The translations under genes and the position numbers were made by a program. Positions 43,521 to 53,531 of a stretch of 53,531 nt of DNA are shown one piece after another. Within the stretch, counting starts at the first letter, position 1. Every line of letters begins with the position of its first letter. The DNA comes from Actinomycetota bacterium. GTDB taxonomy: Bacteria; Actinomycetota; Actinomycetes; S36-B12; UBA5976. The stretch lies in the NCBI GenBank assembly GCA_947452755.1, contig CANGDT010000006.1, forward strand, positions 1-53,531. Reading direction: 5' to 3'. Under the pieces are notes generated by a model. That model had not been told where the DNA came from, did no database searches, and was given only the letters and a program-made list of their open reading frames with translations.

Positions 43521-44726
43521 TTACGCGTCACCCATTAGTTCTTTACGCAACTTCATCAACGTTGACGTTAAACCAATTCCCACAACACCAACGAGTTTGC
43601 CCCCGCGGTAGTAACCCATTACGAGTTCGCCGCCAATTGAACCCTCGATGATTGCAATTTCGTCAGCAAGGGCCGGCATGCCGAAACCTTGAATCTTGAG
43701 GTCGTACTGATCTGACCAGAACGACGGCATCGGCGTGAACGGCTGTGCAACCAGTTCGTCATAGCCTTCACCACTGAGGTAAGCATTGAGAACTGGCCCA
43801 ACTCGCTTGCCAGTTTCAGTAGGAATGTTCCAATGTTCAATTCGACGTGCAACGTCATCAAAAAGTGGATTGGCGAATCGAGCCAAGTCGCCAACAACAT
43901 GAACGCCATCAACAGAGTTACCGTCAACGGTGACCGCGCGCAAAGCCCGGTCTGCCAACACGCCATTACTCAAATCAAGGTTTGTGTTGTTCAGCCATTC
44001 GGTATTGCAATGTGAGCTGATTGCCTCAACTAATACGTCAGCTGGGAGCAGTTCGCCGTCATCAAGCAAAACGCCTGTGAGTGCGCCGTCACCTTCAAGG
44101 TCGGCAATGCCACGACGCAGGCGGAACTGCACGCCATGAGTTTCGTGCCGAGCCTGAAGATCGGCTGCAAAAGTAGGTCCCAGTGGCCGAACCATTGGAT
44201 ATTCATCAATGGCAACGGCCGTGACTTCGCAACCTAACCCGCGTGCAGTCGCCGCTACTTCGCATCCGATAAATCCAGCACCGGCAACGACAACTCGAGC
44301 ACCTGGAACAAGAGCTGCACGCAAGCCAATTGCATCATCCAAACTGCGCACGGTGTGCCGACCTGTGACGTTTCCGTTTGGCACATCCAGTCGACGCGGT
44401 CGTAAACCTGAAGCAATCACAAGTCCGTCGTAGCTAAACGTTTCACCATCATCAGTGGTTACTGTTTTGGCATCAAGATTGGCATCAACAACCGGTGAAC
44501 CAAACTTCCACACAACATCCGCAGTTTGTTGACGCTGTTTAAACGCCACGGCTTCGTGTGTCACTTCTTTCGCCAACACTTCTTTTGACAACGGAGGACG
44601 GTTATAAGGAGCGTGTGATTCATCGCCGATAACAGCGATGTTGTCGGTAAAGCCAGCATTGCGCAGGGCTTCAGCGGTACGCAGCCCACCCATGGATGCG
44701 CCGACAATGACTACTGACTTGGACAT
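43521..44726 (-). CDS. FAD-dependent ferredoxin reductase
   Basis: SVVIVGASMGGLRTAEALRNAGF; YNRPPLSKEVL; VVVAGAGFIGCEVAATARGLG; HVVGDLARF. Confidence 0.92.
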   Translation of the reverse strand: MSKSVVIVGASMGGLRTAEALRNAGFTDNIAVIGDESHAPYNRPPLSKEVLAKEVTHEAVAFKQRQQTADVVWKFGSPVVDANLDAKTVTTDDGETFSYDGLVIASGLRPRRLDVPNGNVTGRHTVRSLDDAIGLRAALVPGARVVVAGAGFIGCEVAATARGLGCEVTAVAIDEYPMVRPLGPTFAADLQARHETHGVQFRLRRGIADLEGDGALTGVLLDDGELLPADVLVEAISSHCNTEWLNNTNLDLSNGVLADRALRAVTVDGNSVDGVHVVGDLARFANPLFDDVARRIEHWNIPTETGKRVGPVLNAYLSGEGYDELVAQPFTPMPSFWSDQYDLKIQGFGMPALADEIAIIEGSIGGELVMGYYRGGKLVGVVGIGLTSTLMKLRKELMGDA

Positions 44727-44762: not shown

Positions 44763-44954
44763 TTAATCTTGCAGGACGATAGCTTGCATTGGGCACACGT
44801 CAATTGCACTTTCGATATCAGTGCGACGGCTGTCATCGGCAGTGGCAACGTATTCCAACTTGTCGTCATCGTTGAGCTTGAAGATGTCTGGCGCTTCAAA
44901 AACACACTGACCGTAATGCTGGCACTTTTCCATATCGACGTAGATTTTGAGCAT
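44763..44954 (-). CDS. Small 3Fe-4S-type ferredoxin (P450-associated type)
   Basis: MLKIYVDMEKCQHYGQCVFEAPDIFKLNDDDKLEYVATADDSRRTDIESAIDVCPMQAIVLQD. Confidence 0.9.
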   Translation of the reverse strand: MLKIYVDMEKCQHYGQCVFEAPDIFKLNDDDKLEYVATADDSRRTDIESAIDVCPMQAIVLQD

Positions 44955-45832
44955 TAGTTCTTCTCCTCAACAGTTGATGGGTACAGGTCTTTCGATGGTG
45001 TGCGAATTCCGCGGAACTCCCAGTCGCCACCCATTGCGGTGGATACAACTTCTTCGCTTTCGGTCGGCTGTGCGCCAACGTCTGTGCGGATTGCCGTAGG
45101 TCCAGTGACGATTGTGTTTGTTAACTTGCCGAGTCCTTCGACTTCAACTTCAACAACGTCGCCTGGTTGAACTGGTCGTGAGTTTGCTGGTGTTCCACTG
45201 AACAAAATGTCGCCAGGAACCAATGTGATGGTGCGCGCAATATCGGCGACCAAGTAATTCATGTCCCACTCCATGTTGCTGGTGTTGTCGTCTTGTTTCA
45301 CTTCACCATTAACGAGTGTGCGAATTTGTTTGCCACGGAAATCCCAGTCTGTGATCAGGCCCGGGCCGACAGGTGCGAGTGTGTCGCTGCCTTTGACGCG
45401 CAACATTGATCCTGCATCGGTATCGCGGAAATCGTGTAGACCGTAATCATTTCCGATTGTGTAGCCCGCGATGTAGTCGCCAGCTTCATCTGGGCTGATG
45501 TTGCGACAGATGCGACCGATAACGATGACAATCTCACCTTCGTAGTTCAGCCACTTGCATCCCTGTGGGCGCACGATGTTTCCGTTGTGGCTGTTCAGTG
45601 CTGTGATTGGCTTGTGAAAGTACGTTGGCGCAGCAGGAAGTTTTGTCATGAACTCCTTGGTGCGGCTGTCGTAGTTCAAATGCACAGCAATGATTTTGGT
45701 TGGCTCTGAAGGAGGCAAGTGAATCGCATCTGCGATTGCAACTTCACGACCATCAGGAGCCACCAAGGTGTCACCGTGACGAATTGTCTGGACGGCATAA
45801 CCATCCAACAGAATGCGGCGATACTCAGCCAC
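44954..45832 (-). CDS. Fumarylacetoacetate hydrolase family protein
   Basis: HKPITALNSHNGNIVRPQGCKWLNYEGEIVIVIG; GYTIGNDYG; PGDILFSGTPANSRPVQPGDVVEVEVEGLG; GTG start with GGAGG RBS. Confidence 0.88.
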   Translation of the reverse strand: MAEYRRILLDGYAVQTIRHGDTLVAPDGREVAIADAIHLPPSEPTKIIAVHLNYDSRTKEFMTKLPAAPTYFHKPITALNSHNGNIVRPQGCKWLNYEGEIVIVIGRICRNISPDEAGDYIAGYTIGNDYGLHDFRDTDAGSMLRVKGSDTLAPVGPGLITDWDFRGKQIRTLVNGEVKQDDNTSNMEWDMNYLVADIARTITLVPGDILFSGTPANSRPVQPGDVVEVEVEGLGKLTNTIVTGPTAIRTDVGAQPTESEEVVSTAMGGDWEFRGIRTPSKDLYPSTVEEKN

Positions 45833-46733
45833 GCGATACCTCCGGGTGTTTGACGGCTGGGAAGCCGCCTTCTGGGGCATCGAACCATAGGTGAACTTGG
45901 CCCGTGCCGATTGAGTTTTCGTAGTCGCCGTATTGACGACCCTTTGCAGTGTTGTCACCTTCGCCAGTTGCGCCGTGCATCATCATGGCGTGACCGTATC
46001 GAGCTTCTGGCTTGAACTTATGGAAAGCCGGCATGGTGTCCAAGACTTTGGCGTGATCACCGTTCTTGTACCACTCGATGCGCTCTTCGTCTGCTGCGCG
46101 AGCTTCAGGAGTAAAGATGCTCGTGAGGTCTGCGGATTCGTGTTTGCGCAATTCGCGAAGTGGCCAGAACGTGTGTGACAGCGCACCTGAGGCAATCAAC
46201 AGAACTTTGCGGTCCGAGTTTGCAACTGCTTCGCCAACAGCACGACCTAAACGTAAGTTGTCTTCGTCATCACCTGTTTGGCACATGCCAATGCTGATCC
46301 AGTTCTTGTCTAGGCCCTTGCCAAGGAATGACCATAAATTCAATGTTGCGTAGAACGTTGGCAAGTGTGGATTGTCGATTGGCGTGATCCAGGTGCCGTG
46401 CTTTTCCCCAAGGTCAGCAATTTGCTTAGCTAGTTCGGGATCACCTTTCCAGTCGTACGGCACCGACGACATGCCGCGAGGTAGTTCTTCACTGGTGTAG
46501 AAACCAGTGCGGTGATCGTGTGAGGTGACGACGTATTCAACAGTGGTTGCCCAATGTGAATCGAAGACGATGACTGTGTCGTAGTCAGCGGTTTCAAAAA
46601 CGTCTTTGCGCAACTGTGTGAGCGCAGGACCGAGTGTGAAATCTTTGCCGTTGTTTAATTCACGACGAATATCTTCCGGCAACATGATTGTCGGTACGTG
46701 AGCAAGGATTCCTGCTCCAACAATTTCTCCCAT
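45825..46733 (-). CDS. hpaD: LigB-type extradiol ring-cleavage dioxygenase, HpaD-like
   Basis: HVPTIMLP; VIVFDSHW; FYTSEELPRGM; LIASGALSH; SIGTGQVHLWFD, resembling 3,4-dihydroxyphenylacetate 2,3-dioxygenase. Confidence 0.82.
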   Translation of the reverse strand: MGEIVGAGILAHVPTIMLPEDIRRELNNGKDFTLGPALTQLRKDVFETADYDTVIVFDSHWATTVEYVVTSHDHRTGFYTSEELPRGMSSVPYDWKGDPELAKQIADLGEKHGTWITPIDNPHLPTFYATLNLWSFLGKGLDKNWISIGMCQTGDDEDNLRLGRAVGEAVANSDRKVLLIASGALSHTFWPLRELRKHESADLTSIFTPEARAADEERIEWYKNGDHAKVLDTMPAFHKFKPEARYGHAMMMHGATGEGDNTAKGRQYGDYENSIGTGQVHLWFDAPEGGFPAVKHPEVSRG

Positions 46734-46735
46734 GA

Positions 46736-48199
46736 TTATTCCTTCCATCCATTCGGCGCAAAGACGGTGTTCTTTACGTCGGCGTAAAAATCAAATGACC
46801 AGATGCCACCTTCGCGACCAATTCCGGATTTCTTCGAGCCACCAAATGGTGCACCGAGATCGCGGACGAAGAAGCAGTTCACCCAGACTGTGCCGGCAAC
46901 GAGATGTTCGGTGATTGCTTCGGCGCGAGCCTTGTCGCCGCAAATCAACACTGCAGCCAAGCCGAATTCGGTGTCGTTTGCCATCTGGATTGCTTGCTCG
47001 TCAGTATCGAATTGCTGCATAACCAAAACGGGTCCGAATACTTCCTGGGTCGCAATTTCGCTACCAGGCGTGGGGTTATCGATCAGCGTGGGCTTGAAGA
47101 AATTGCCACCAAGGTCAGCGTTGGGGCCGCCGCCCATCACAATGTTTTGCCCTTCACTAGCAGCGCGGTCAACGAATCCTTTGACGCGAGCGAAATGATC
47201 AGGATGCACCTGTGGCCCAATGTCAGTTTCTAGGTCGCGCGGATCACCTTGCTTGATCTGTTGTGCCTTTTCGATGAATGCAGCCTTGAAAGCATCGGCG
47301 ATTCCACGTTGTACAAGTATGCGCGTGCCCGACAAGCACACTTGGCCGGCATTGTCGTATTGCTCGACGGCAACTGTGACGGCGATGTCCAGGTCGGCAT
47401 CGTCGGTGATGATGAGCGGGCTTTTGCCACCAAGTTCAAATGAACATGGAACCAAGTTGTCAGCCGCAGCCCTAGCCACCAACTTTGCAGTCGGAACTGA
47501 GCCAGTAAATGAAATACGCGACAGGTCAGGATGTGACGTGAGTGCAGCACCTGCTTCTTCGCCGTAACCTTGCACAACGTTGAACACACCGGGTGGCATT
47601 CCAGCTTCGACTGTGATGTCGGCCAAGAGTGATGCAGTCAGCGGCGTCCACTCGGGTGGTTTTGCAACGACTGTGTCACCAGCTGCAAGGGCAGGGCCGA
47701 TTCGCCAAGTTGCCAACATCAATGGCGCATTCCACGGGGTGATGACACCGACCACACCGGTTGGATCCCACGTGACGTGATTGCGATGTCCGCGCGTATC
47801 AAAATCTGGATAGGACAGTTGATTCATCGCATAGTCGGCAAAGAAACGGAAGTTCATTGCAACACGCGGCATCACACCACGACGGTGTGATCGCAATAGT
47901 GAACCGTTGTCAGTTGTTTCCACAATGGAAAGTTCTTCGATGCGCTCTTCTACAAGGTCAGCAACGCGATGCAAAATTACGCCGCGTTCTTGTGGTGTCA
48001 TTTTGGACCAGATTGGGAACGCAGCTTTTGCCGCAGCCATGGCCATGTCGACTTCACGTTTGCCACCACGATGAATGTCGGCAAGGAATGCTCCGTCGAT
48101 TGGGGAGTGATCTGGGAAGGTTTCGGCGGATTCGACACGTTCTCCACCAATGAAATGGCGGGTGTCGACCTCAACGCCAGCAACAATTGCCTTGGTCAT
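46736..48199 (-). CDS. hpaE: Aldehyde dehydrogenase, HpaE-like
   Basis: FELGGKSPLIITDDADLD; NAGQVCLSGTRILVQ; RDLGAPFGGSKKSGIGREGGIWSFDFYADVKN. Confidence 0.82.
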   Translation of the reverse strand: MTKAIVAGVEVDTRHFIGGERVESAETFPDHSPIDGAFLADIHRGGKREVDMAMAAAKAAFPIWSKMTPQERGVILHRVADLVEERIEELSIVETTDNGSLLRSHRRGVMPRVAMNFRFFADYAMNQLSYPDFDTRGHRNHVTWDPTGVVGVITPWNAPLMLATWRIGPALAAGDTVVAKPPEWTPLTASLLADITVEAGMPPGVFNVVQGYGEEAGAALTSHPDLSRISFTGSVPTAKLVARAAADNLVPCSFELGGKSPLIITDDADLDIAVTVAVEQYDNAGQVCLSGTRILVQRGIADAFKAAFIEKAQQIKQGDPRDLETDIGPQVHPDHFARVKGFVDRAASEGQNIVMGGGPNADLGGNFFKPTLIDNPTPGSEIATQEVFGPVLVMQQFDTDEQAIQMANDTEFGLAAVLICGDKARAEAITEHLVAGTVWVNCFFVRDLGAPFGGSKKSGIGREGGIWSFDFYADVKNTVFAPNGWKE

Positions 48200-48212: not shown

Positions 48213-48234
48213 TATCGTTCGGATACTAACGAAA
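48213..48234. promoter_or_regulatory. Island operator O1 (hpaE-like / puuD-like divergent region)
   Basis: TATCGTT-CGGATACT-AACGAAA. Confidence 0.65.
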
Positions 48235-48297
48235 TACGATACGTTACATACGGTAATTTGGGAACCAGATTTCCGATATTTCTTTAGGCAGGTATCC

Positions 48298-48978
48298 GTG
48301 ACTCAGCGCCCTCGAATCGCCCTTTTGGGTCGTTTTACCAACTCGGCCTCAGCCTTGCGCTACGCAGGCGTGGTCAGTTCCCGTGCGCTGCTTGAAGGTC
48401 TGTGGAATGCCGGAGCCGATCCGGTGACGTTGCTACCCGCTTTGGATAGCAACTGGGCGGAACGGCTTCTGGGTTTTGATGGAGTTTTATTGGCCGGAGG
48501 TGGGGACATCAATCCAGCTCGTTACGGTCAGGAACCTGACGAATCGGTTTATGACGTCGATGACCTCCAGGACCAGGCTGATTTCGAGTTGACGGAATAC
48601 GTTCTCGGACAAGGCATCCCGACGTTAGCGGTGTGCCGAGGTATGCACGTGGTCAATGTTGTGCGTGGAGGAACATTGATTCAAGATATGCCCGTCAACC
48701 ATCGCAACCATGTGCATCAGGTGAAAGTCACGAATCACGAGGCTTTCGGTTTCAGTGATGAAGTCATTACCGCGTCGTGTTATCACCACCAGGCAATTGA
48801 TCAATTGGGGTCAGGTCTGACGATCGAGGGTCGTGCGGAAGATGGCACGGTTGAAGCGATGTCGATTGCGGCCAATGGTTGGGCATATGGGGTTCAGTTT
48901 CATCCTGAAGACACGGCAGCTAGTGATGTAAACCAAAGTGGCCTGCTTGCGGAACTTGTGAAGCAAGCAAGTAAATAA
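48298..48978 (+). CDS. Gamma-glutamyl-GABA hydrolase-like class-I amidotransferase (PuuD-like)
   Basis: GGDINPARYGQEP; PTLAVCRGMHVVNVVRGGTLIQDMP; YGVQFHPEDTA. Confidence 0.88.
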   Translation: MTQRPRIALLGRFTNSASALRYAGVVSSRALLEGLWNAGADPVTLLPALDSNWAERLLGFDGVLLAGGGDINPARYGQEPDESVYDVDDLQDQADFELTEYVLGQGIPTLAVCRGMHVVNVVRGGTLIQDMPVNHRNHVHQVKVTNHEAFGFSDEVITASCYHHQAIDQLGSGLTIEGRAEDGTVEAMSIAANGWAYGVQFHPEDTAASDVNQSGLLAELVKQASK

Positions 48979-49016
48979 CGGTTGCGGAACTTGTGAAGCA
49001 AGCAGGTAGTTAACGT
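48947..49016. repeat. 35-bp tandem duplication spanning the puuD-like stop codon, 2 copies
   Basis: TTGCGGAACTTGTGAAGCAAGCAAGTAAATAACGG / TTGCGGAACTTGTGAAGCAAGCAGGTAGTTAACGT (31/35). Confidence 0.95.
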
Positions 49017-49517
49017 TTAGCGGTCCGCTTCGACTGTTTTGGTCACAGCGCGCAGCATTTCTGCGAGCGGGCCAAGGTCTTTCCGGTCAAGGTCGGCGAT
49101 GGCGAGGCGTTCGCCTTTATTGAATTCGGGGAACAGGGTGTGCATCATTTTGCGTCCCTTTGCGGTGAGGCGAACCAGTACGAGTCGACCGTCTTCGGTG
49201 CTGCGCTTGCGGGTTACTAGACCGCGGCCTTCGAGTGTTTGTAGGACTCCGGTGAGTGTGGCTTTTGAGAATCCGCCTTCTTCGGCGATTGTGCGGGTTT
49301 CGACGGGTTCCCAGATCCAGACGACCCATAGCACTACAAAAGCGGTCCAGGACAAATCATTTTCGGCTAGAACTGTTCGTTCAAGGTAGTTGCGCACTGC
49401 GTTGGCGGCCCGGAACAGGTTTGAGGTGACTGCCATTGCTTCGAAGTCGATTTTGAGGTCACCGAGACGCTCCTGAACTTGGCGTTCAGTTTCATCGAGC
49501 GTGTGTTGACCAGCCAT
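49017..49517 (-). CDS. MarR family transcriptional regulator
   Basis: TIAEEGGFSKATLTGVLQTLEGRGLVTRKRSTEDGRLVLVRLTAKGR; start could alternatively be 49544. Confidence 0.9.
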   Translation of the reverse strand: MAGQHTLDETERQVQERLGDLKIDFEAMAVTSNLFRAANAVRNYLERTVLAENDLSWTAFVVLWVVWIWEPVETRTIAEEGGFSKATLTGVLQTLEGRGLVTRKRSTEDGRLVLVRLTAKGRKMMHTLFPEFNKGERLAIADLDRKDLGPLAEMLRAVTKTVEADR

Positions 49518-49603
49518 TTGAACCTCAATCTTCGGGTATTTCAAATAATCCTAGTCCGCTTGGCGAAAATGCCCCCAAGAAAATTGGAAATGAGGTAACT
49601 TCT

Positions 49604-49625
49604 TATTGTTCGTATCCGAACGATT
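49604..49625. promoter_or_regulatory. Island operator O2 (marR / P450 divergent region)
   Basis: TATTGTT-CGTATCCG-AACGATT. Confidence 0.65.
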
Positions 49626-49653
49626 ATTCGATCGTCACGTGTGAGGTAGGGCA

Positions 49654-50904
49654 ATGTCAACGACGACAAACATCAGCTTGGCTGACATGAGTATTTTTGA
49701 GCGCGAAATCCCCTGGGGAGTTTTCGATGAACTGCGCACCAATGCTCCCGTGCACTGGAGTGACGAACCGACTCCAAATAAGGGATTCTGGTCACTCACC
49801 GGATACAGCGATATCGTTTCGGTCCTTCGTGACACCGACACCTACTCGAGCGAACGCGGCGCAGTCACGTTGGAAGAGCTTGAGCCCGATGAACTCGAAG
49901 CACGTAAGTCCATGATCGACACTGACGGTTTGCGTCACCGCGCATTGCGCAAACTGATGCAAGACTCGTTCACGCCGCGCGCAGTTGCTGGGTATGAAAC
50001 ATTCCTTCGCGGGTTGACTGCATCAACGTTGGACACGGCCTTTGCATTAGGCAAGTTTGATTTCGTTAAGGAAGTTGCTGCCGACTTCCCAATTCGCGTG
50101 TTGGCAAAGTTGCTTGACGTTCCAGATTCTGACATCGGTCAATTGATCGAGTGGGGTAACCGCATGGTTGGCAACACTGATCCAGAACATGCCGACGTGT
50201 TGTTGGATTCACCAGAATCCGAGAAGTACCGCTTGCTTCCATTCCGTTCACCCGCAGCACTTGAGTTGTGGGCCTACGGCGACGAGCTTGCCCGTCAACG
50301 TAAGGGCGGAAGCGGCAAAGACATCGTGTCAACAATGATCAACCAGACACCGATTGATGGCGTCCCGTTGTCCGAACGTGATTTCCATGCCTACTTCCTG
50401 CTTCTAGTTGTGGCCGGAAACGAAACAACACGTCACACCATCAGCCACAGCATGAATTACTTGATCGACAATCCTGACCAGATGGCGTTGTTGCAAGAAA
50501 AGCCTGAATTGATTGATTGGGCTGTCGAAGAAATGCTGCGCATGGCTAGCCCGGTGTATCACTTCCGTCGTACTGCGATGAAGGACACTGAAATTCGCGG
50601 ACAGAAAATCAAGGAAGGCGACAAGGTCGTCACGTGGTTTGCTGCGGGAAATCGTGATCCTGAAATTTTCAAGGATCCTTACAAGATGGACGTCACCCGT
50701 AGCCCGAACGAACATATGACCTTTGGTCGCGGTGGACCGCATTTGTGCTTGGGCAACGCGCTTGCACGTTTGGAAATCAAGATCATGTTCCAAGAGCTCT
50801 TGCCACGCATTTCAGACATCAAACGCACTGGCGAAGTTGATCGCTTGCGTAGCAACATCATCAACGGCATTAAGCGTTTCCCAGTGGAAGTTACTCTGAA
50901 GTAA
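49654..50904 (+). CDS. Cytochrome P450
   Basis: VVAGNETTRH I-helix; EEMLR; FGRGGPHLCLGNALARLE heme motif. Confidence 0.96.
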   Translation: MSTTTNISLADMSIFEREIPWGVFDELRTNAPVHWSDEPTPNKGFWSLTGYSDIVSVLRDTDTYSSERGAVTLEELEPDELEARKSMIDTDGLRHRALRKLMQDSFTPRAVAGYETFLRGLTASTLDTAFALGKFDFVKEVAADFPIRVLAKLLDVPDSDIGQLIEWGNRMVGNTDPEHADVLLDSPESEKYRLLPFRSPAALELWAYGDELARQRKGGSGKDIVSTMINQTPIDGVPLSERDFHAYFLLLVVAGNETTRHTISHSMNYLIDNPDQMALLQEKPELIDWAVEEMLRMASPVYHFRRTAMKDTEIRGQKIKEGDKVVTWFAAGNRDPEIFKDPYKMDVTRSPNEHMTFGRGGPHLCLGNALARLEIKIMFQELLPRISDIKRTGEVDRLRSNIINGIKRFPVEVTLK

Positions 50905-50914
50905 TTGAGCGCAT

Positions 50915-50953
50915 AAAAAAGTGGCCCAGCGCAATGTGCTGTGCCACTTTTTT
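50915..50953. terminator. Bidirectional rho-independent terminator between P450 and amidotransferase
   Basis: AAAAAAGTGGC-c-CAGC-gcaatgt-GCTG-t-GCCACTTTTTT. Confidence 0.9.
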
Positions 50954-50959
50954 ATTTCA

Positions 50960-51667
50960 CTAAATCAATTTTGCGACATCGCGTAGAAACGCATCGACAA
51001 GCTCGTTCACGCGGGTGAGTGCCTTGTCCTGTTCGGCACGGGTGTGAGCGACCAGCGCATCGGGATCTTGGCCGTCTTCTGCCACCAGGGCGCGACCCCC
51101 GTTGCCGTACCAACCGAGCAGCATGTCTTCGGTGAGCTCTGGGTGGAATTGCACACCGAGGCTACGTTCGTATGTGAATGCTTGGCTTGCTGAAGAATTG
51201 CGGGCAATTTCGGTTGCTACGGGCGGAAGTGTCCAGCGATCGTAGTGAAATTCAAACCATGGTCCGTCGCTGACAATGTCTGGTCGGTCTGAGTGAATGG
51301 CTGTCCAACCAATTTCAGGCTTAGGCGCCCGAGTTACCGAACCGCCCAGCACGCGGGCCAACAGCTGGCCACCAAAACAAATACCGAATACCGCAACATC
51401 GTTATCGAGGGCTTGCTGAATAAATTCCAGTTCGCCGCTGAGCCAGTTGCCAATGGAGGCATCATCCCAAGCACCCCAGGGTGCACCCATAGGGACGACC
51501 ACATCGAAGTCGGTCGGATCGGGGAATTCAAAATCAATATTTGGGGTATCGAATTTGTCGGCCGGTACAACCAGTGTGCGCACAACCTCAAAACCGTGGT
51601 GGGCAAATCGTTCTGCCACCGGTCCAGGCGGACTGACATGGTCGTGCTCGATTATCAGAACCCGCAT
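50960..51667 (-). CDS. Class-I glutamine amidotransferase (GMP synthase-like)
   Basis: VAVFGICFGGQLLARVLGG nucleophile motif; LGVQFHPELTEDML. Confidence 0.9.
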   Translation of the reverse strand: MRVLIIEHDHVSPPGPVAERFAHHGFEVVRTLVVPADKFDTPNIDFEFPDPTDFDVVVPMGAPWGAWDDASIGNWLSGELEFIQQALDNDVAVFGICFGGQLLARVLGGSVTRAPKPEIGWTAIHSDRPDIVSDGPWFEFHYDRWTLPPVATEIARNSSASQAFTYERSLGVQFHPELTEDMLLGWYGNGGRALVAEDGQDPDALVAHTRAEQDKALTRVNELVDAFLRDVAKLI

Positions 51668-51746
51668 AAACCCGTCCTTGCAATAACGTAACCAAATTTT
51701 TCCCTATTTTGCCCTAGTTGGGGTCGGTTTGCGTCTAGTATCAGAA

Positions 51747-51768
51747 AATCGTTCCGACCCTAACGATT
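51747..51768. promoter_or_regulatory. Island operator O3 (amidotransferase / GS-like divergent region)
   Basis: Perfect AATCGTT-CCGACCCT-AACGATT. Confidence 0.75.
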
Positions 51769-51782
51769 ATCTCGGAGGACCA

Positions 51783-53129
51783 ATGGCGCTCGACCTGACT
51801 GCACTGCGCAAAGACCTGCAGAGCAAGAACATTGATGTGTTGCGTTTGATTTATGCAGACGTTCTCGGCATTACCCGATCGAAGGATTTGTTAGTTAGCC
51901 AGCTGGAAAATTCAGCCGCGCATGGCCCTGCGTTCTGTCAGGGCGTCTGGGTCACCACAACCCAAGGCGGAGTGCTCGATGGTCATGGAAGTATTTCCGA
52001 TGGCTTGTCGGACTTCGTGAGCCAGATTGTGCCAGCGAGTATTCATGAACTTCCATGGGAACCAGGTGTTGCCTATGGTGTTGCCAACGCATTCGAACCT
52101 GATGGCAGCGACAACCCAGTTGCTCCGCGTACCGCTTTACAGCGCGTACTGAATGAATACGCCGAATTGGGTTTGATCCCGGTCATTGGTACTGAACTCG
52201 AGTTCTACATTGCTGAACAAATCGAAGAACAGTGGAAGCCAATCCTTCATCGCAAGGGTCGCGTCTACACAACCGGTGCCATGGTGGATCGCGACGGATT
52301 GTTCTTGCATATGTTGCGCATGCTTGACCAAATGAATATTGGCATCTTTGCCGGTAACCACGAGTTCGCTCCGGGCCAATTTGAAATCAACATGTGGCAT
52401 GGCGAAGCAATGGAAACAACGGACCGCACATTGTTATTCAAAACTGCGCTGAAGGACATTGCAGCTCGTCGTGGATTGAACGCGACATTTCTGGGCAAGC
52501 CTTGGGCTGACTTAGAAGGTAGTGGTTTCCACTTGCACTTCTCGGTGACGGACATGAATGGCGAGAACAAAATGCATGACGGTGCTGAGTTGTCTGATAC
52601 CGCTAAGCACATGATTGCTGGCATCCTCCAGCACGCCAACGCATTGACCGCATTTGCTAACCCAACAGTCAACGCATTCAAGCGCCTTGGTCCAGACACG
52701 CTGGCACCAAGCCGGGCAAACTGGGGATATGACAACCGCGCAACAATGTTGCGTGTTCCACCAGAGCGTGGTGGCGGTACTCGCCTAGAAGTTCGCATCG
52801 GTGATGGTGCTGCAAATCCATACTTGGTTGTTGCATCTGTTCTGGCCGCTGGCCTTGATGGCATCAAGCGCAATTTGACGCCACCGGCTCATGCCGAAGG
52901 TTGGGCTTACGAAAATGAGGCAGACGCATTGTTGCCTGTGACATTTGCTGAAGCGCTGGATGCGTTGGATGCTGATCCGTTGTTCGCAGAAAAACTTGGT
53001 GCAACTGTTGTCCAGACTCACTTGACTTTGAAGCGCGATGAAATTGAGCGTTATGAAGCCGAAGTGTCTGACCCAGCTACCCGTGACATCACGGACTGGG
53101 AACTAAACGAATACATCTGGGATTTCTAA
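51783..53129 (+). CDS. Glutamine synthetase-like gamma-glutamyl-amine ligase
   Basis: VIGTELEFYI; NHEFAPGQFEIN; GSGFHLHFSV; LEVRIGDGAANPYL; GGAGGA RBS before ATG 51783. Confidence 0.88.
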   Translation: MALDLTALRKDLQSKNIDVLRLIYADVLGITRSKDLLVSQLENSAAHGPAFCQGVWVTTTQGGVLDGHGSISDGLSDFVSQIVPASIHELPWEPGVAYGVANAFEPDGSDNPVAPRTALQRVLNEYAELGLIPVIGTELEFYIAEQIEEQWKPILHRKGRVYTTGAMVDRDGLFLHMLRMLDQMNIGIFAGNHEFAPGQFEINMWHGEAMETTDRTLLFKTALKDIAARRGLNATFLGKPWADLEGSGFHLHFSVTDMNGENKMHDGAELSDTAKHMIAGILQHANALTAFANPTVNAFKRLGPDTLAPSRANWGYDNRATMLRVPPERGGGTRLEVRIGDGAANPYLVVASVLAAGLDGIKRNLTPPAHAEGWAYENEADALLPVTFAEALDALDADPLFAEKLGATVVQTHLTLKRDEIERYEAEVSDPATRDITDWELNEYIWDF

Positions 53130-53186: not shown

Positions 53187-53531
53187 CTAGATTGGCTGGC
53201 TGCGATCGGCGATCAACGTCCCACCTGCGAATGTCACGCCTACTTCGCGGTAGTAGCCAGCGATGATTTCTTGGACGGGAAGGATTGAGGCAAGTTCGTC
53301 CCATTGCGAATCACCCAGAACTAATTCAGCATCGCCCTTCCAGGCTTGGCCAAGGTCAGCGTCAACTCCACCCATGGTGACGAGTTGATCCATGGTCATA
53401 CCTTTGCCACGTTCGATTGATGGCATCCAACGGTTGTGCAACATGGGGTGTCCATTAACGAAACCATTCTTTTCGACTGGTTCACGCAATGTGACGATGG
53501 CGCTTGCCAATCGGTGATCGTATGCCGACAA
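53187..53531 (-). CDS. Acetoacetate decarboxylase-family-like protein, partial (runs off the right edge)
   Basis: GHPMLHNRWMPSIERGKGMTMDQLV...AWKGDAELVLGDSQWDELASILPVQEIIAGYYREVGVTFAGGTLI resembles ADC family. Confidence 0.55.
   Translation of the reverse strand: MSAYDHRLASAIVTLREPVEKNGFVNGHPMLHNRWMPSIERGKGMTMDQLVTMGGVDADLGQAWKGDAELVLGDSQWDELASILPVQEIIAGYYREVGVTFAGGTLIADRSQPI

Follow-up and report, generated by a model that had tools for sequence, protein, structure and literature searches.

Why should genes for a ferredoxin reductase, a ring-cleaving dioxygenase, a cytochrome P450 and a glutamine-synthetase-like ligase carry the same short element at their promoters? The question is raised by a catabolic island at the end of the window, the whole 53,531-nucleotide stretch of actinobacterial DNA analysed here. 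A preliminary description had noted a shared inverted repeat in the island's divergent promoter regions, one copy of which adjoins a gene for a MarR-family regulator, and had proposed an autoregulated local regulon. MarR regulons built on palindromes in divergent promoters are a familiar design.

A shared element in three divergent gaps

One site was found in each of the island's three divergent gaps, at the positions and on the strands given in the preliminary description. Operator O1 (TATCGTTCGGATACTAACGAAA, 48213..48234, + strand) lies in the hpaE/puuD gap, 13 bp before the hpaE-like start and 63 bp from that of puuD. Operator O2 (AATCGTTCGGATACGAACAATA, 49604..49625, − strand) lies in the marR/P450 gap, 28 bp before the P450 start and 86 bp from that of marR, and operator O3 (AATCGTTCCGACCCTAACGATT, 51747..51768, + strand) occupies the GATase/GS gap, 14 bp before the GS-like start and 79 bp from that of the GATase gene. 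Compared in the orientation of that description, O1 and O2 are identical at 18 of 22 positions and O3 is a perfect 7-bp inverted repeat with an 8-nt spacer, both as had been claimed; O3 matches O1 and O2 at 16/22 positions each. A matrix built from the three sites scored them at 29–32 bits, values inflated partly by construction because the same sites went into the matrix, and the runner-up place in the 53.5-kb window reached 11.8 bits. Among trios of 22-mers common to the three gaps, the best reached 52 summed identities; 150 Markov shuffles gave 38.1 on average and never more than 43. The convergent gaps of the island held no operator site.

Conservation and shape of the operator in relatives

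We searched GTDB genomes with the MarR protein and obtained 55 related loci (58–86% identity), under names that include Candidatus Nanopelagicales, Microcella, Yonghaparkia and Rhodoluna; several labels of metagenome-assembled genomes (MAGs) are clearly unreliable. The MAGs holding L012, L026, L063 and L055, for example, are titled Bifidobacterium breve or Gulosibacter; their sequence clearly places them among the freshwater actinobacteria, and the labels look wrong. Nearly all 55 loci hold the same island. Counting sites of more than 12 bits within 250 bp upstream of a gene, we found one before hpaE in 51 of 54 relatives, before the P450 gene in 49 of 53 and before the GS-like gene in 40 of 45. 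The expectation from shuffled regions was 0.07–0.12 matches per whole set, and coding sequence, taken as a control, gave 3 matches in 405 kb. The proposed operator is thus conserved at equivalent positions, and where puuD has moved elsewhere the site remains before hpaE.

The 143 sites define a half-site of (A)(A)TCGTTnG(G/T)(A/G), in which both T of CGTT and the next G are near-invariant, and a full operator of the form ATCGTTnGnn-nnCnAACGAT, with 24.2 bits for the whole element. The best form, the perfect 22-bp palindrome TATCGTTCGGATCCGAACGATA, is present in one relative (L062). The 7-8-7 layout of the preliminary description was correct for the outer part, but across species the element is longer, a 22-bp palindrome. 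Its distance to the start codon is 9–150 bp over all relatives; in the window's genus it lies 12–30 bp upstream of the hpaE, P450, GS and ADC start codons.

Alignment within the genus placed each operator about 5 bp after a conserved −10-like sequence and before the Shine-Dalgarno sequence. The −10-like sequence is TATCGT before O1; before O3 it is TAAAAT in relatives and TAGTAT in the window. These calls are based on conservation alone, and a sigma-70 consensus scan, which is uninformative for this lineage, returned no promoter matches. Since the operator sits between the −10-like and Shine-Dalgarno sequences, a bound dimer should block initiation.

A fourth site and the extent of the proposed regulon

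Genome-wide searches combined a calibrated sequence-only model of 62 sites with pattern searches; since filters capped how many candidates were scored, weak sites may be missed. In the window's own 1.73-Mb genome (G000), the ranking was O2, O1, a site near cydA on contig C9, a fourth site (O4), O3 and then two weak places. Matches in a LuxR/substrate-binding protein divergent gap on C37 and in a cytochrome b/alcohol dehydrogenase divergent gap on C55 had E values in the range 0.35–0.52 and were treated as chance. A search of 14 relatives found only two places outside the island. The motif is therefore rare at unrelated loci, the top places in the own genome being O1–O4 and the cydA site and the matches in relatives being nearly all within the island.

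O4 was first found by the blind pattern search and its context was learned afterwards. It lies outside the window, at G000:C2:641-662, about 25 bp before the start of an ADC/MppR-family gene (53187..53531, − strand; PF06314) that is cut by the contig end and continues on C2; window positions 53383-53531 and G000:C2:1-149 overlap by 149 identical bases. Along C2 the island goes on with the ADC start, O4, a second ferredoxin gene and a GntR gene. One or two sites precede the ADC-family gene in most relatives. An APC-type amino-acid permease gene lies near it in 23 loci, with at least one site at the permease start, and among the relatives the ADC operator region is often shared with a divergent amino-acid permease gene. 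The shared operator of the proposed local regulon was upheld, but the regulon is larger than had been described, adding the ADC gene, the permease in relatives and perhaps cydA. Genes that look unrelated are thus united in a single coherent, sharply bounded regulon, which is defined by a 24-bit operator conserved over many freshwater actinobacterial species, and the operator predicts which genes belong to the pathway.

The strong copy on C9 (G000:C9:40888-40909; L004:1501-1522) is 48 bp upstream of cydA. A member of another genus of the same family has a strong copy 159 bp upstream of a cydA copy (L137:12480; G089:C56), which is the best genome-wide match of that genome. Across the 30 genomes whose cydA upstream region was read, a site of more than 16 bits was present in 3 of 11 with the MarR gene vs 0 of 19 without (nominal p = 0.04); nine congeners have no cydA site, and those genomes lack cydA. 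The regulon may in some lineages have come to include cytochrome bd oxidase.

Contig C2 also carries a second amine-type cluster (G000:C2:9146-16223; L098), with genes for a CoA-transferase III, an amidotransferase, a GS-like protein, an alcohol dehydrogenase, a P450 and an amino-acid permease. Its divergent gap has no strong operator, and its P450 is 40% identical to that of the first island.

A MarR-family protein as the presumed binder

The presumed binder of O1–O4 is the MarR-family regulator encoded at 49017..49517 (− strand, ATG at 49517), which matched PF01047 with 51.9 bits against a cutoff of 24.6. Its AF2 model (pLDDT 90.2) has the winged helix-turn-helix fold of the MarR type. The model had 318 PDB matches at E ≤ 0.001, of which the best 50 are all MarR-family or MarR-like regulators, and among the matches listed it was closest to MftR, PecS, HucR, PcaV and HpaR. 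A palindrome in the own and divergent promoter, a trait of the MarR family, is present here as O2 and is conserved.

Because the 55 relatives were found with the MarR query, the presence of MarR in them is by selection. A comparison of 148 genomes of the order is free of this bias: 47 had both motif and MarR, 88 had neither, 10 had the motif only and 3 had MarR only. The two agreed in 135 of 148 genomes (Fisher p = 6e-25, nominal since the genomes are related), a correlation expected under any cluster-linked binder. In most motif-only genomes a contig ends within the cluster, and G045 and G079, counted as MarR only, do have weaker sites at the corresponding places. Within the window's genus, 7 sampled genomes carry motif and MarR and 16 carry neither; the island is accessory within the genus.

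Helix 85–97 of MarR (SKATLTGV) and the wing residues Asp109 and Arg111 hardly vary even where overall identity has fallen to 56%, a pattern to be expected of a protein with a constant operator. The protein also has an invariant Trp-rich stretch (W57...W64.W67.W69), which we infer would suit an aromatic ligand. We conclude, with a probability of about 0.87, that the island's own MarR-family repressor has the 22-bp palindrome as its operator; binding by MarR and autoregulation are well-supported predictions.

Alternative explanations

Another regulator could instead bind the palindrome, a candidate being the GntR-family protein encoded at C2:894-1568 beside the ADC gene. This gene adjoins the ADC gene with its O4 site in this genome, and within the order each of the 18 genomes that have a close GntR homologue carries the motif too. 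However, the homologue is missing from 39 of the 57 motif-bearing genomes, including all six full-island congeners, which refutes GntR as the general binder. GntR goes with C2's second amine cluster; MarR is located inside the island in nearly all cases. We regard a different binder as unlikely.

Less probable still is that the inverted repeat acts as RNA, forming a hairpin in the 5′ leader for translation control or attenuation. A perfect or near-perfect repeat near a ribosome-binding site, with some both-side changes in its outer pairs, would suit such a role, but conservation falls on bases rather than pairs (TT/AA and G/C do not vary), pairing is broken in 21% of pair cells, start codons lie at variable distances, and divergent genes are served by this one element in both orientations. 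A hairpin is unsupported because complementarity at the inner positions 8, 10 and 11 does not exceed what independent bases would give. The sites might also be alike through a recent duplication or by coincidence, the three gaps being AT-rich; this would accord with the small number of sites in the window, three, and the close match of O1 to O2. We give it next to no weight: it is refuted by the unrelated flanks of the sites, by shuffles that never reached the observed likeness and by conservation of the sites over species with MarR proteins down to about 55% identity.

A predicted pathway of amine breakdown

The genes behind O1 on the − strand encode, from the operator outwards, an HpaE-like aldehyde dehydrogenase (46736..48199; PF00171), an HpaD-like LigB-type extradiol dioxygenase (45825..46748; PF02900), an FAH/HpaG-like hydrolase or decarboxylase (44954..45958; PF01557; nearest solved chain 1gtt, HpaG), a small ferredoxin of 63 aa (44763..44954), read from sequence and the presumed P450 electron donor, and a ferredoxin reductase (43521..44726; PF07992 and PF14759). 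The nearest solved chain to the HpaD-like protein is a 3,4-dihydroxyphenylacetate 2,3-dioxygenase. Neither HpaD (TIGR02298, 136 bits vs 316) nor HpaE (TIGR02299, 514.7 bits vs 638) reached its equivalog cutoff. Across O1 on the + strand is a PuuD-like C26 amidotransferase/hydrolase (48298..48978; PF07722; GTG start inferred), which scored 60.7 bits with the PuuD model, below the cutoff of 266. O2 precedes a cytochrome P450 that is CYP125-like by sequence (49654..50904, + strand; PF00067; nearest solved chain 8vxi, CYP125MRCA). O3 separates a class I glutamine-amidotransferase-like gamma-glutamyl hydrolase (50960..51667, − strand; PF00117) from a putative glutamine-synthetase-like gamma-glutamyl-amine ligase (51783..53129, + strand; PF00120). 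In an alignment, the Glu-flap PGYEAP of B. subtilis glutamine synthetase (GS) corresponds to PDTLAP in this GS-like protein, an E to L change; lacking the catalytic Glu-flap residue, it was rejected as a canonical glutamine synthetase.

These parts suggest that the island serves the breakdown of an amine, probably an aromatic one. The GS-like ligase would gamma-glutamylate the amine, the P450 with its ferredoxin and reductase would oxygenate it, the LigB-type HpaD would cleave the catechol ring, HpaE, FAH and the ADC-family protein would process the compound, and the GATase and PuuD-like proteins would take off the glutamate. By analogy with AtdA/NpaA (PMC11335346), gamma-glutamylation, oxygenation, ring cleavage and deglutamylation would be the simplest chemistry. 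We found no direct description of a pathway with these parts in the open-licence literature. The operator is clearly real, conserved and specific, and the MarR-type local regulon is ordinary; the pathway is less ordinary and undescribed. Our fullest proposal is one that we consider less likely than not. The operator would flag all the genes of an aerobic pathway not described before, which would take an aromatic amine through gamma-glutamylation, ring hydroxylation by the P450, cleavage by the HpaD-like extradiol dioxygenase and then removal of glutamate; in some lineages MarR would also have captured the cytochrome bd oxidase genes. Cultured Microcella strains have the same system, which makes the pathway testable.

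Proposed mechanism

The best reading of the regulation is simple MarR repression that an amine of the pathway relieves. A MarR homodimer would read the CGTT/AACG half-sites in successive major grooves, with its wings at the A/T-rich ends, and the bound repressor would stop transcription start of the hpaE-hpaD-fah-fdx-fdr operon and of the P450, GS and ADC genes; the divergent puuD, marR and GATase genes would possibly be repressed as well. MarR would leave the DNA on binding a ligand, perhaps aromatic, that is either the imported amine or an early intermediate. MarR would be a ligand sensor usable to find the substrate. The general MarR mode of action agrees with this mechanism (PMC5487221).

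Comparison with known systems

HpaR, which represses the hpa-meta operon in E. coli W and Yersinia, is likewise of the MarR family, and both HpaR and the island MarR adjoin a homoprotocatechuate-type meta-cleavage operon. HpaR represses via palindromes near the promoter, with sites of the form TTAA-N4-TTAA (PMC7180172). The island operator, ATCGTT-N10-AACGAT, is unlike these, and the set that it controls extends beyond that of HpaR to the P450, GS and amidotransferase genes. We rejected identity of the regulator with HpaR, as TIGR02337 gave 54.5 against a cutoff of 121.2 and the operator also differs.

The UrtR-type regulators MftR, PecS and HucR are the best structural matches among those listed and fall in the same size class, at about 20–24% identity to the island MarR. 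The model has the additional N-terminal helix of this type (residues 7–18), with a TM-score of 0.84 to MftR. Members of the UrtR subfamily have conserved urate-contact residues, including an N-terminal Trp; read in sequence, residues 1–56 of the island MarR, N-terminal helix included, contain no Trp. The targets differ, being amine/aromatic catabolism for the island MarR and urate or transport for the UrtR type. A divergent autoregulated arrangement is known for HucR (PMC5487221).

In gene content, the island resembles the PipA/MorA P450 systems of Mycobacterium and Gulosibacter, which act on secondary cyclic amines and likewise combine a P450 and its ferredoxin partner with a neighbouring GS gene (PMC9477822). 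The clusters in that paper are not described with an extradiol dioxygenase, HpaE or FAH, whereas the island has all three. GS-like ligases glutamylate an amine before oxidation in several pathways, namely AtdA1/NpaA1 for aniline and 1-naphthylamine, GlnA4/EpuRI for ethanolamine and Puu for putrescine; the AtdA/NpaA routes lead to ring cleavage, and in the case of GlnA4 a neighbouring regulator acts as repressor (PMC11335346, PMC6529630). Unlike the AtdA/NpaA, GlnA4 and Puu pathways, the island pairs a P450 oxygenase with HpaD-like LigB ring cleavage, and its regulator is a MarR protein with a defined operator.
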